Shown here in pieces: positions 13,464-49,690 of a stretch of 49,756 bases of DNA (positions within the stretch are counted from its first letter, which is position 1; each line of letters starts with the position of its first letter). Both the position numbers and the translations under genes were made by a program. The notes beneath the pieces were generated by a model. The model worked only from the letters and a program-made list of their open reading frames with translations, made no database searches and was not told the origin of the DNA. The DNA lies in assembly GCF_005771525.1 (NCBI RefSeq), contig NZ_VAVZ01000027.1, positions 1 through 49,756 of the forward strand, written 5' to 3'. The DNA is from Nesterenkonia salmonea (GTDB lineage: Bacteria > Actinomycetota > Actinomycetes > Actinomycetales > Micrococcaceae).

Positions 13464-13577
13464 ATGAAGGTTCACCCGAGTGTCAAGCCGATCTGCTCGG
13501 ATTGCAAAACCATCCGCCGTGGTGGAATTGTCCGCGTGATCTGCAAGAACCCGCGTCACAAGCAGCGCCAGGGCTGA
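13464..13577 (+). CDS. rpmJ: 50S ribosomal protein L36, zinc-binding (C+) form
   Basis: L36 is the smallest large-subunit protein. It has 37 residues: [20 protein letters not shown] followed by [16 protein letters not shown]. The CxxC pair (Cys11 and Cys14), Cys27 and His32 form the zinc ribbon of the canonical form. AGGAG lies before the ATG. A second L36 gene without these cysteines is at 48472-48594, so this genome has a zinc-dependent and a zinc-independent version. Confidence 0.97.
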
Positions 13578-46911: not shown

Positions 46912-47034
46912 CGGTCCAGCACCACCGCCATGAGAAGCTCAAACAACTTCAGCTGCGATCCCTCGGGCACTCGAGTACGCCTCAGCTCAGTTTCACTAGT
47001 GACACCGATAAGGGTGCTAAGGTGAGACTGATTC

Positions 47035-47064
47035 TTGATAAATATATTGCAATCTATTTATATG
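47035..47064 (+). promoter_or_regulatory. ArsR-family operator over the promoter of the zinc-responsive pair
   Basis: A 24-bp inverted repeat, ATAAATATATTG followed by CAATCTATTTAT (47038-47061), has 11 of 12 positions per arm complementary. TTGATA (47035-47040) and TATATG (47059-47064) could be its -35 and -10, 18 nt apart, so a bound repressor would block RNA polymerase. It ends 14 nt before the arsR ATG, which suggests autorepression. Confidence 0.8.
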
Positions 47065-47075
47065 TGTGGTGAAGT

Positions 47076-47414
47076 ATGAGTGTGAGCGACACGTCGGGTC
47101 TCGCCCCAGCTGCTCAGTTGTTCAAGGTTCTCGGCAATGAGTCGAGGCTGTGGTTGTTGCAGCTGATCGGCCAGGAGCCGCTGACTGTGGGGGCACTGGT
47201 GCAGGCGACAGGAATGTCGCAGCCATTAGTCTCCCAGCATCTGCGGACGCTGAAGCAGGCTGGACTCGTCACGGCTGATCGTCACGGCAAGGAAGTGGAG
47301 TACCAACTTGCTGACCACCACGTTTCGCACGTGATTGACGACGCCATCGCTCACTCACAGGAGACCACACCGAGTCCGCCGCCAAAGGCAGCGGCAGAAG
47401 GAGCTTCACCATGA
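47076..47414 (+). CDS. SmtB/CzrA-type zinc-sensing ArsR repressor
   Basis: A winged-helix metal sensor, 112 residues. The DNA-binding segment GMSQPLVSQHLRTLKQAGLV covers about residues 46-65. The C-terminal helix has Asp80, His82, His93 and Glu96 in the spacing D-x-H-x10-H-x2-E, exactly the alpha-5 zinc site of SmtB and CzrA. There is no CVC motif of the arsenic or cadmium type. The Pro/Ala-rich tail after residue 98 is not conserved. It overlaps the His-rich peptide gene by 4 nt (ATGA). Zinc or a similar divalent metal is the likely ligand. Confidence 0.93.
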   Translation: MSVSDTSGLAPAAQLFKVLGNESRLWLLQLIGQEPLTVGALVQATGMSQPLVSQHLRTLKQAGLVTADRHGKEVEYQLADHHVSHVIDDAIAHSQETTPSPPPKAAAEGASP

Positions 47415-47563
47415 GCGACCACAAGACTGCAGAGCACACCATCGAAGACCACCAGCATGGTCCGAACTGCGGCCACGAAGCCGTCGAGCACGAGGGCCAT
47501 GTGGACTACATCCATGAGGGCCACCGCCATGCTGAGCACGAAGACCACTACGACGAACACTGA
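47411..47563 (+). CDS. His-rich metal-binding small protein
   Basis: A 50-residue protein with 13 histidines and one cysteine (Cys20), starting MSDHKTAEHTIEDHQHGPNC and ending HAEHEDHYDEH. It has no signal peptide or membrane segment, so it is cytoplasmic. The start codon overlaps the arsR stop, so translation is coupled. The composition suggests a zinc or nickel buffer or chaperone under control of the ArsR repressor. From memory, similar short peptides with HVDYxHxGHRH are common in actinobacteria and often misnamed as transporter permease. The function is not established. Confidence 0.85.
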   Translation: MSDHKTAEHTIEDHQHGPNCGHEAVEHEGHVDYIHEGHRHAEHEDHYDEH

Positions 47564-47573
47564 GCCCGCGGCG

Positions 47574-48329
47574 TTACGGCACCGGCACTGAGGTCACCAG
47601 ATAACTGGCCCTCAGGCTGGTGCCGACTGCGCTGGGCTCAGCCCAGCGTCTCACAGTACTCAGCAGAGCATCTCGTGCCTCCGGCCACCGCGGCCCGAGA
47701 CTTTGCGCCCCGAGGATGATCGGCGCGCTGTGCCGTTCCATCAGCTCAACGAACGCCTCGGGTGATTCGACTTCAACGGCGAACCACCCTTCACGAACGG
47801 CAGCCTGCGTGCCCACTAATCGCAGGATCTCCTCGGCATCTTCATGCCAGGGTGTGGGAGTATCGGGAAAATACGGTGCCAGTGTCTGGCGAATATGGCT
47901 GAACATGCCGCTGAATGACTAGCTGCTGAAGACGACTTCCCCGCCGGGGCGAGCCAGTCGCTTAGCTTCACTGAGCGCTTCATGCGGTTCTGGTGAGAAA
48001 ATGAGACCGAAGGTGGACATCACCAAATCCGCACAGTTCTCGCTCAGGGGAACCTGGGGCATATCTGCGTTGAGCCATTGCGCTACCACCCCTGCCGCCT
48101 CGGCGCGCTGAGCAGCCTCATCCAGCAGGCTCTGTGTGACATCGACCCCAATGACGGATCGGACCCCACGTTTCGCAGCGGCTATAGCGCTGACGCCGGT
48201 GCCGGTGGCGAGATCTACGATGTCTTTGTTCTCCACGCTGAGGGATTCAACGATATCCCGACCCGCTTGGGCCCACAGGTCTCCGATCACGGAGTAGTCA
48301 CCGAGACTCCACAATTCTGCAGGGTCCAT
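47574..48329 (-). pseudogene. SAM-dependent methyltransferase broken by an in-frame TAG
   Basis: A class I methyltransferase of the Methyltransf_11/25 type. From the ATG at 48329 (after AAAGGA) codons 1-136 encode DIVDLATGTGVSAIAAAKRG (motif I), DVTQSLLDEA and NADMPQVPLSENCADLVMSTF, ending at LARPGGEVVFSS. A TAG follows at codon 137 (minus strand 47921-47919). The same frame continues without shift as SFSGMFSHIRQTLAPYF and runs to 47574 with the usual C-terminal domain. Relatives have a tryptophan after this beta-strand, so a TGG-to-TAG change fits. The rest of the frame is intact, so the event is recent, or the stop is read through. Confidence 0.85.
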
Positions 48330-48471
48330 CACAGTCCTTTGCTTGGCGTCACAGCTTCTGAGCGATGTCGAAGTCCCCGCTCGTCAGAGCCATATTGCAC
48401 ATTCCGCCGGCATCACTTCCTGCAGCGCTTATGCCTACTACGACTGCCTTCCAGGGTGCAGCCCAAGGAGC

Positions 48472-48594
48472 TCATCCCTGGCGCCCTTTGAACCTCCGAT
48501 TCTGCTTGTTGATGACGTATGTTTTTCCGCGCCTGCGCACCACCTGAGAGCCGGGTTGCTTCTTCAGGGAGCGGAGAGACTGGCGCACCTTCAT
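48472..48594 (-). CDS. rpmJ2: 50S ribosomal protein L36, cysteine-free (C-) form
   Basis: A second L36, 40 residues: [20 protein letters not shown] followed by [20 protein letters not shown]. It contains no cysteine, so it cannot bind zinc, unlike the copy at 13464-13577. GGAGG lies 6 nt before the ATG. In other bacteria such C- paralogues are controlled by Zur and replace the zinc form when zinc is scarce. It is divergent from the COG0523 gene and about 140 nt upstream of the broken methyltransferase. Confidence 0.95.
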
Positions 48595-48661
48595 TTGTTC
48601 CTCCAATTGCGAATAAGTAGCATTAGCTATAAATCATACGCGGAATATGGAGAGGACGCTA
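48595..48661. promoter_or_regulatory. Divergent promoter region of L36 (C-) and the COG0523 gene
   Basis: This 67-nt AT-rich region carries TATAAA (48628-48633) as a possible plus-strand -10 and a short dyad TAGC-ATTA-GCTA (48618-48629). A joint metal-dependent operator is expected here, but I do not see a clear Zur box, nor a copy of the ArsR operator at 47038-47061. Confidence 0.45.
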
Positions 48662-49690
48662 ATGGCTACAGAGGTCACAGCCGTTGTAGGTGCCTGCGGG
48701 CCAGAGCGCCAGCGGTATGCCCAAAACCTGGCACGCCGCCATGGTGCCCAACTGGTGCTTGCCCAGCGTGTCGCTGCCAGTGACTCTGCTGTCGAAGATG
48801 CCCTCGATCAGGTGTCGCAGGACCCTGAGGCGCGCCACCTGGTGGTGGAGTTTCCGCTGCAGAGCCCGGTGCTGCACATCATTGGAGAGCTTGCTGACGC
48901 TACGGCTTCGGCTGAACTGACTGATGTGGTGTGCCTGGTGGATGCAGCGCACCTGCTGTCGGACTTATCCTCAACGGAGCATCTTCGTCTGGCCAGCCAC
49001 GATAATCATGGTCCCGCCGCTGTTTACGCCTCACGTGCTGAGCTGGTCGTCACCCAGATTGAGTACGCCTCCATGGTCGTACTGGTCAACACAGAGGCGT
49101 TGCGCGCACGAGAACTGAATCTCCTTCTGACATTAATCAGCTACCTCGCTCCCAAGGCCCATATTGACATGGTCGACGCCTCAGGTCACCAAGCGCCCCA
49201 CAGGTCTATGGGCAGCTTCACCATGGAACAGACACACGCTGGATGGGTCAGTCTGCTCAACGGGGACTTCGCACCGAGATTCCAAGATTCTGCGGTCACG
49301 GGGCTGCACTATGAACAAATGCGACCCTTTCACCCAGGTCGTCTGAGCGAGCTCATGAATCGGTGGATGGACCCGTTGGATGGGGGAACGCTGCTGCGTT
49401 CAGCGGGATTCTGCCATTTGGCGACACGTTCACACATCACTGGCCACTGGAATCAGGTGGGCACCCACTTAGCAATGTTCCCCGCCGCCTTTGATCACCA
49501 GCTGGGGGAGGAAGATGAGCCCTTGGCGTTCGGCCAGGATCTGGCTCTCATAGGCCTTGATCTGAAGGCAGATCAGCTCATTGATGAACTCGATGACGCG
49601 GCGCTGACAGACAGTGAGTTAGTTGGAGGGCCTGCCCTGTGGGCTACCTTCCCTGACCCCTTCCCCGAATGGAGCACTGCAGATCACTAA
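48662..49690 (+). CDS. COG0523/CobW-like protein with lost Walker A (Mrf-like)
   Basis: A 342-residue protein related to CobW/ZNG metallochaperone GTPases. The C-terminal half is clear: MRPFHPGRLSELM and GTLLRSAGFCHLATRSHITG are typical of the CobW_C domain. The N-terminal half is diverged: the P-loop position reads VVGACGPERQRYAQNL and lacks GxxGxGKT/S, and no CxCC metal motif exists. The ATG at 48662 follows GGAGAGGA; an in-frame ATG at 48647 is less likely. Divergence from C- L36 recalls mycobacterial Mrf, a COG0523 protein that recruits the hibernation factor to zinc-starved ribosomes. This match is inference from context and fold. Confidence 0.8.
   Translation: MATEVTAVVGACGPERQRYAQNLARRHGAQLVLAQRVAASDSAVEDALDQVSQDPEARHLVVEFPLQSPVLHIIGELADATASAELTDVVCLVDAAHLLSDLSSTEHLRLASHDNHGPAAVYASRAELVVTQIEYASMVVLVNTEALRARELNLLLTLISYLAPKAHIDMVDASGHQAPHRSMGSFTMEQTHAGWVSLLNGDFAPRFQDSAVTGLHYEQMRPFHPGRLSELMNRWMDPLDGGTLLRSAGFCHLATRSHITGHWNQVGTHLAMFPAAFDHQLGEEDEPLAFGQDLALIGLDLKADQLIDELDDAALTDSELVGGPALWATFPDPFPEWSTADH

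Follow-up and report, generated by a model that had tools for sequence, protein, structure and literature searches.

In the window studied here, i.e. the whole stretch of 49,756 nucleotides that makes up contig C61 of the 3.28-Mb, 140-contig genome of Nesterenkonia salmonea, a gene for a cysteine-free (C-) ribosomal protein L36 and a divergent gene for a CobW-like protein very probably constitute, to judge from sequence comparisons, a Zur-repressed zinc-starvation module with one shared operator. In Zur regulons, zinc-free ribosomal proteins have COG0523 proteins as neighbours; Mrf aside, we know of no tested reason for this association. The CobW-like protein belongs to a family that has shed both its GTPase and its metal motifs and yet shares an operator with one ribosomal protein, which points to a role at the ribosome. 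We would give about even chances to its being a ribosome adaptor, and slightly better than even chances to the complete explanation, a Zur-repressed module with an adaptor acting on C- L36 ribosomes.

The divergent gene pair and its predicted operator

The C- L36 gene (48472..48594, minus strand) encodes a protein of 40 residues, none of them cysteine. It matches the NCBIfam type B L36 model (NF002021) with 71.0 bits when the protein itself is scanned (cut-off 70) and with 69 bits, just below this cut-off, in the six-frame search; the Pfam L36 model (PF00444) gives 58.2 bits. The other of the genome's two L36 genes, recognized by profile search and sequence, encodes the ordinary (C+) form (13464..13577, plus strand), which has a CxxC motif and, in total, three cysteines and one histidine at the positions of the zinc ligands. 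C- L36 is the copy that would replace it. Across a 67-nt intergenic region (48595..48661), the CobW-like gene (48662..49690, plus strand), identified by profile searches and motif patterns, encodes 342 residues. Its start is likely the ATG at 48662, preceded by the Shine-Dalgarno sequence GGAGAGG, the corresponding sequence on the L36 side being TCCTCC; in all searches the protein query ran from 48665, with the methionine left off. A preliminary sequence-only reading of this DNA had placed a cysteine-free L36 divergent from a CobW-like gene between 48472 and 49690, and both the arrangement and these coordinates are right.

Between the two starts lies a Zur-type operator, TTGCGAATAAGTAGCATTA (48607..48625), which by computation is a Zur box. 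It was detected with a 19-base matrix built from 69 intergenic regions of relatives that do not belong to Nesterenkonia, and is the best site of the window scanned on both strands. Its score of 19.1 bits is weaker than the training median (28.4 bits), and none of 20 first-order Markov-shuffled windows matched it (maximum 16.7 bits). With the genus left out of training, at least 14 bits were reached in 73 of 76 intergenic regions of related loci, mostly at a distance of 12–18 nt from the L36 start codon. In 67 of these 76 loci the intergenic site outscores every other 110-nt stretch, and in the remaining nine it does not. For five of these nine (L164, L183, L193, L207 and L216), we think that the comparison met the pair's own site, because the masked stretch missed the pair's place. 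The Corynebacterium glutamicum Zur sites and the Streptomyces consensus, as given in the accessible part of PMC2823685, have the same form as the matrix. That part also lists RpmJ (L36) among the ribosomal protein paralogues predicted in Zur regulons, in an actinobacterial set including Leifsonia xyli, and two of our Leifsonia loci (L191 and L194) carry the present pair; however, it does not state the organism of this RpmJ, nor does it mention a Walker A-less divergent partner, which is present here.

Elsewhere in the genome, the matrix marks a 23.1-bit site 16 nt before the presumed ATG of the first gene of a metal ABC importer, which matches the zinc AztA/B/C and related models, all below their cut-offs. 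One of the genome's two FUR-family genes adjoins this importer. A gene for an AztD-like zinc chaperone (L377, G000:C75:6500-11000; 336 bits for a cut-off of 400) has Zur-type sites, one of them of 19.2 bits, and is likely, as far as the sequence tells, a further member of the Zur regulon.

Distribution and surroundings of the pair

When 84,980 species genomes were scanned by pattern, 94 relatives came to light, and we retained the 80 best. An adjacent, divergent C- L36 gene is present in 76 of the loci of these best 80 of 94 relatives, spread over 15 named genera that include Microbacterium (28), Brevibacterium (20) and Nesterenkonia (7). This neighbourhood survey, which the sequence-only reading had suggested, found the same divergent pairing again and again, and together with the shared Zur-type operator it gives good sequence support to the zinc-starvation module proposed there. 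The four loci without C- L36 within the locus stretch are all from Kocuria (L160, L179, L181 and L182). They retain the CobW-like protein and an operator-like site (15.8–30.5 bits), and thereby speak against a role confined to L36. This may mean that the Kocuria protein has a role beyond L36 or that L36 has moved. The CobW-like protein or its sister group was found, at E 1e-10, in 22 of 297 genomes drawn from the order, and its distribution is therefore scattered; in another genome of the genus (G071), which gave one L36 match, both the CobW-like protein and a second L36 are missing.

The reverse survey, starting from C- L36, drew on 394 genomes of the class; it covered 60 places outside the window that reached 62 bits or more, with 6 kb around each. 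An Mrf-type neighbour is present in 24 of them (two weak, below 50 bits), the CobW-like family in three, and a Walker A-bearing protein of the Microbacteriaceae group M2 described below in one, while 32 have none of these partners. C- L36 is thus often accompanied by another partner or by none. A stricter L36 text pattern missed L36 in two of 25 loci (L009 and L016); L016 is from the same genome as L201, where the profile search finds L36.

The CobW-like protein is encoded in one open frame in 77 of the 80 loci. In Brevibacterium sandarakinum, linens and celere (L196, L203 and L214) the gene is split over more than one frame, and in L196 L36 too lies in more than one frame, which may point to decay of the module in some species. 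Of the 80 loci, 17 (including L155, L157 and L159; 16 of them from Brevibacterium) also encode a canonical COG0523 GTPase, recognized by text pattern from its Walker A and CxCC.

Two other genes recur beside the pair. An ArsR/SmtB-family metalloregulator (47076..47414, plus strand; NF033788, 85 bits) is present in 21 of the 80 pair loci versus none of the 60 class-wide C- L36 loci, and a His-rich peptide of 50 residues, 13 of them histidine (47411..47563, plus strand; no Pfam or NCBIfam match), in 24 of 80 versus one of 60, in an uneven comparison of class-wide stretches of about 6 kb with pair loci of 10.5 kb. The regulator adjoins the peptide in 21 of the 24 peptide-bearing loci. The peptide could be a zinc buffer belonging to this island. 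A weaker and possible second Zur-like site (47022..47040), the second-best of the window, lies upstream of the ArsR gene and scores 16.8 bits, compared with 16.7 bits for the best of the 20 shuffles; of three other Nesterenkonia loci, two show no site above 8 bits in front of ArsR. In many Microbacterium loci, the ArsR and peptide genes follow L36 on its strand, and two tandem copies of the peptide are found in many loci of this genus. Behind L36 in the window, and on its strand, lies a short open reading frame for a class I methyltransferase (47919..48332, minus strand). It was rejected as a part of the module because only one of the 80 loci (N. haasae) has it.

The remaining ribosomal proteins of the genome bear on the choice of L36. 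Our searches found L28, L33, S14, S18 and L31 in one copy each. L28 contains a single cysteine, and none of the five carries a CxxC zinc motif. As zinc-free sequences served as queries for L28, L33, S14 and S18, a distant zinc-type copy of these could have escaped notice. The sequence-only reading had L36 standing in for the L28/L33/S14/S18 set, an idea that fails here as these single copies are already without cysteine zinc motifs. No Zur-type site above 11 bits was detected at the L28-L33-S14 genes (5.0 kb) or at S18 (3.5 kb). Among the six ribosomal proteins compared (these five and L36), L36 alone was found in both forms, and it may therefore represent this ribosome's one remaining zinc switch.

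The CobW-like family and its relatives

The CobW C-terminal domain (PF07683) is retained in the CobW-like protein (residues 213-312, 49301..49600, plus strand; 39 bits) and in all 57 members of alignment A2. In contrast, no Pfam match to the cobW nucleotide-binding domain was obtained in the protein, nor any match to its model PF02492 in the whole genome; among the 57 members, one matches it weakly (E 0.0017). The best-scoring curated model is ZigA (NF038288), with 112 bits for a cut-off of 600, whereas the MRF model (NF047431) gives 65.2 bits for a cut-off of 375, its best stretch covering residues 77-236. These profile searches, advised by the sequence-only reading, confirm a COG0523 relative, below the ZigA cut-off, and give no support to Mrf membership. 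A DUF2868 match (E 0.0096) was taken as chance since it is below the cut-off and occurs in only one of 57 relatives. A PDB sequence search returned nothing significant (best E 0.46), and the fold is inferred from the C-terminal domain and the alignment.

Motifs were counted by text patterns in 78 full-length members, i.e. the window and 77 relatives, the three copies in pieces (L196, L203 and L214) being excluded from these counts and from the trees. GxxxxGK[ST], NKxD, CxCC and CxSC are each absent from all 78. Walker A was found for this protein in none of the loci of the best 80 of 94 relatives, and a loss peculiar to the N. salmonea genome was accordingly rejected. The former Walker A loop now reads GACGPER (48689..48709, plus strand), from alignment and motif counts, following a family pattern G-x-C-x-P-E-R of which G9 and R15 are invariant in the 78 members, E14 is present in 97% of them, and C11 in 93% of the 57 rows of alignment A2; the exact GxCxPER is present in 55 of 78. 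The place of the NKxD guanine motif, located by alignment to canonical GTPases, is now VNTE (49085..49096, plus strand). Since these motifs are absent from 78 of 78 members and the C-terminal domain is kept in 57 of 57, the nucleotide function and the CxCC metal function of the family look gone, with the C-terminal domain and a new motif kept. The non-GTPase role put forward in the sequence-only reading gains support from this. The gene is nevertheless under strong purifying selection: against Nesterenkonia haasae, the nearest named relative among the best 80 of 94 (89%), dN is 0.060 and dS 0.88 over 341 codons, a dN/dS of about 0.07. These values, together with the recurrence of the arrangement in 76 of 80 loci, argue that the open reading frame is not a chance one.

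Canonical ZigA/YciC proteins are under Zur control in other bacteria. These COG0523 GTPases share the C-terminal domain with the CobW-like protein and provide its best-scoring model, but they carry Walker A, CxCC and NKxD, all three of which it lacks. The nearest other group, M2 from Microbacteriaceae, was matched in 49 of 249 genomes, and 20 of its loci were fetched (L310-L329). Like the CobW-like family, M2 has a divergent C- L36 (15 of 20 loci), operator-like sites (20 of 20) and no CxCC. It differs in that three of the 20 proteins (G125, G786 and G724) keep Walker A beside a divergent C- L36, two of them also NKxD, and in that GxCxPER, as well as C11 and C90, seem by eye to be missing. The sequence-only reading had held that intact relatives in the same position would speak against it, and these three are such relatives in part; they refute a lineage that was always GTPase-less, not the non-GTPase reading of the present protein.

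Mrf (MSMEG_6069/Rv0106; NF047431) resembles the CobW-like protein in being COG0523-like with a CobW C-terminal region and no Walker A, and in its linkage with C- ribosomal proteins, in M. smegmatis under a Zur site at MSMEG_6065-6070 (accessible part of PMC7174638). There its neighbours are L28/L33/S14/S18/L31, whereas here the neighbour is L36. The Mrf orthologue Rv0106 has a CXSC and no GTPase motifs, according to the portion of Haas et al. 2009 (PMC2770081) available, and the absence of Walker A likens the CobW-like protein to it. Walker A is likewise missing from all 24 Mrf-type proteins near C- L36, so that its loss provides no contrast with Mrf. What sets the two apart is the CXXC, kept by Mrf and absent from the CobW-like family (CxSC/CxCC in 0/78, with an alignment gap at this place in 40/40), and the best tree. 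Gene order also favours kinship with M2, as both are divergent from L36 (76/76 for the family, 15/15 for M2) and the Mrf-type proteins near C- L36, which score below the model cut-off, are mostly on its strand (22/24).

The maximum-likelihood tree was made without the Walker A and CxCC columns, with 40 of the 78 family members and then 20 of those 40; the comparison sets comprised 15 of 17 Mrf-type L36 neighbours, 15 of 18 GTPase loci and, as Mrf-model loci, 10 of L118-L128 and 7 of L129-L147. In the best tree, the CobW-like family groups with M2 (98/83), Mrf-type proteins form a separate clade (99/99), and both lie among ZigA-like GTPases. Walker A needs four changes on this tree, and a single loss for the CobW-like family, M2 and Mrf together was rejected (AU p 0.00025). 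A clade of the CobW-like family and Mrf without M2 was not rejected (AU p 0.159). The CobW-like protein is probably, on these comparisons, not an Mrf orthologue, and the pair departs from the minimal Mrf version imagined in the sequence-only reading, being outside the Mrf clade in the best tree and without CXXC. Its family appears to be a second COG0523 lineage that is GTPase-dead and linked to a C- ribosomal protein. A description of this divergent family was not found in the open-licence papers on COG0523, L36, Mrf and Zur; others could hold it.

Possible roles of the CobW-like protein

We infer that falling zinc would make Zur leave the shared operator, so that both genes would be expressed. 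C- L36 would replace the zinc-bearing L36 in the 50S subunit, and zinc would be freed. The CobW-like protein, presumably unable to bind GTP or to carry zinc at CxCC, would act on the C- L36 ribosomes as an adaptor that binds other proteins. Its most likely task would be to recruit or stabilise the long hibernation factor, or to help C- L36 to enter the particle. A long-HPF C-terminal domain is present in the genome, with one long hibernation factor copy found. Mrf helps Mpy to bind C- ribosomes in zinc starvation, and, under ample zinc, its CXXC is considered to bind the metal and cause turnover by Clp (both from the accessible part of the review PMC13418864). Transfer of the Mrf function to the CobW-like protein is an analogy, because the latter is without CXXC and outside the Mrf clade in the best tree.

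Alternatively, the CobW-like protein could bind or buffer zinc or another metal, with C11, C90 and C250 as a new site and L36 as a merely co-regulated neighbour. These cysteines are conserved (93%, 95% and 82%, respectively, of the 57 rows of alignment A2), the His-rich peptide and the ArsR regulator are recurrent neighbours, and Kocuria keeps the protein in loci without L36. However, the fact that 76 of 80 loci pair it with a single ribosomal protein gene, the loss of CxCC, which is the known metal site of COG0523, and the apparent absence of C11 and C90 from M2 make this unlikely. Somewhat less likely still is a true Mrf that has lost its CXXC, in which case the family and Mrf would share a single Walker A loss as well as the function of recruiting the hibernation factor. 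The unrejected clade with Mrf, the shared lack of Walker A and the common linkage to C- ribosomal proteins (MSMEG_6065-6070, in the accessible part of PMC7174638) would agree with it, but the best tree, the MRF score lower than that of ZigA and the opposite gene order speak against it, as does genome G034, which has a family member plus an Mrf-like protein beside L28/L33/S14.

That the protein is still a GTPase or metallochaperone using an unrecognised nucleotide site appears improbable. The three Walker A-bearing M2 proteins, the intact CobW C-terminal domain and the single weak nucleotide-binding match could be read in this way; against them stand the absence of Walker A, NKxD and CxCC from every full-length member and a loop now occupied by a different conserved motif. 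Hardly any weight is left for a decaying pseudogene without function: three Brevibacterium copies are in pieces, but the low dN/dS, the single open frame in 77 of 80 loci and the kept operator contradict it for the present gene.

The adaptor reading can be extended, tentatively and with rather less than even chances, to a convergent second family of GTPase-dead COG0523 adaptors. Zur-regulated and paired with C- L36, this family would have lost CxCC and then, repeatedly, Walker A, with the P-loop turned into G-x-C-x-P-E-R, and would act on ribosomes marked by C- L36, as the counterpart, for the L36 site of the 50S subunit, of mycobacterial Mrf. Were this to hold, zinc chaperones would have given rise to ribosome remodelling factors on more than one occasion. 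Relatives with Walker A in the same position provide a natural series for testing a ribosome role, and the single likely target, L36, keeps such a test simple.

Two further loci were observed. Genome G034 has both systems, the L36/CobW-like pair (L235) and, elsewhere, an Mrf-like locus (L337, G034:C1:2841000-2848500) in which the Mrf-like protein (CLSC) is beside L28-L33-S14, a cysteine-free L31, a FUR-family gene and Zur-type sites. Another pairing of a ribosomal protein with COG0523 is seen on a Streptomyces clavifer plasmid (L341, 3440-4792), where a GTP-binding COG0523 protein is encoded right behind the ribosomal L32 gene (rpmF).
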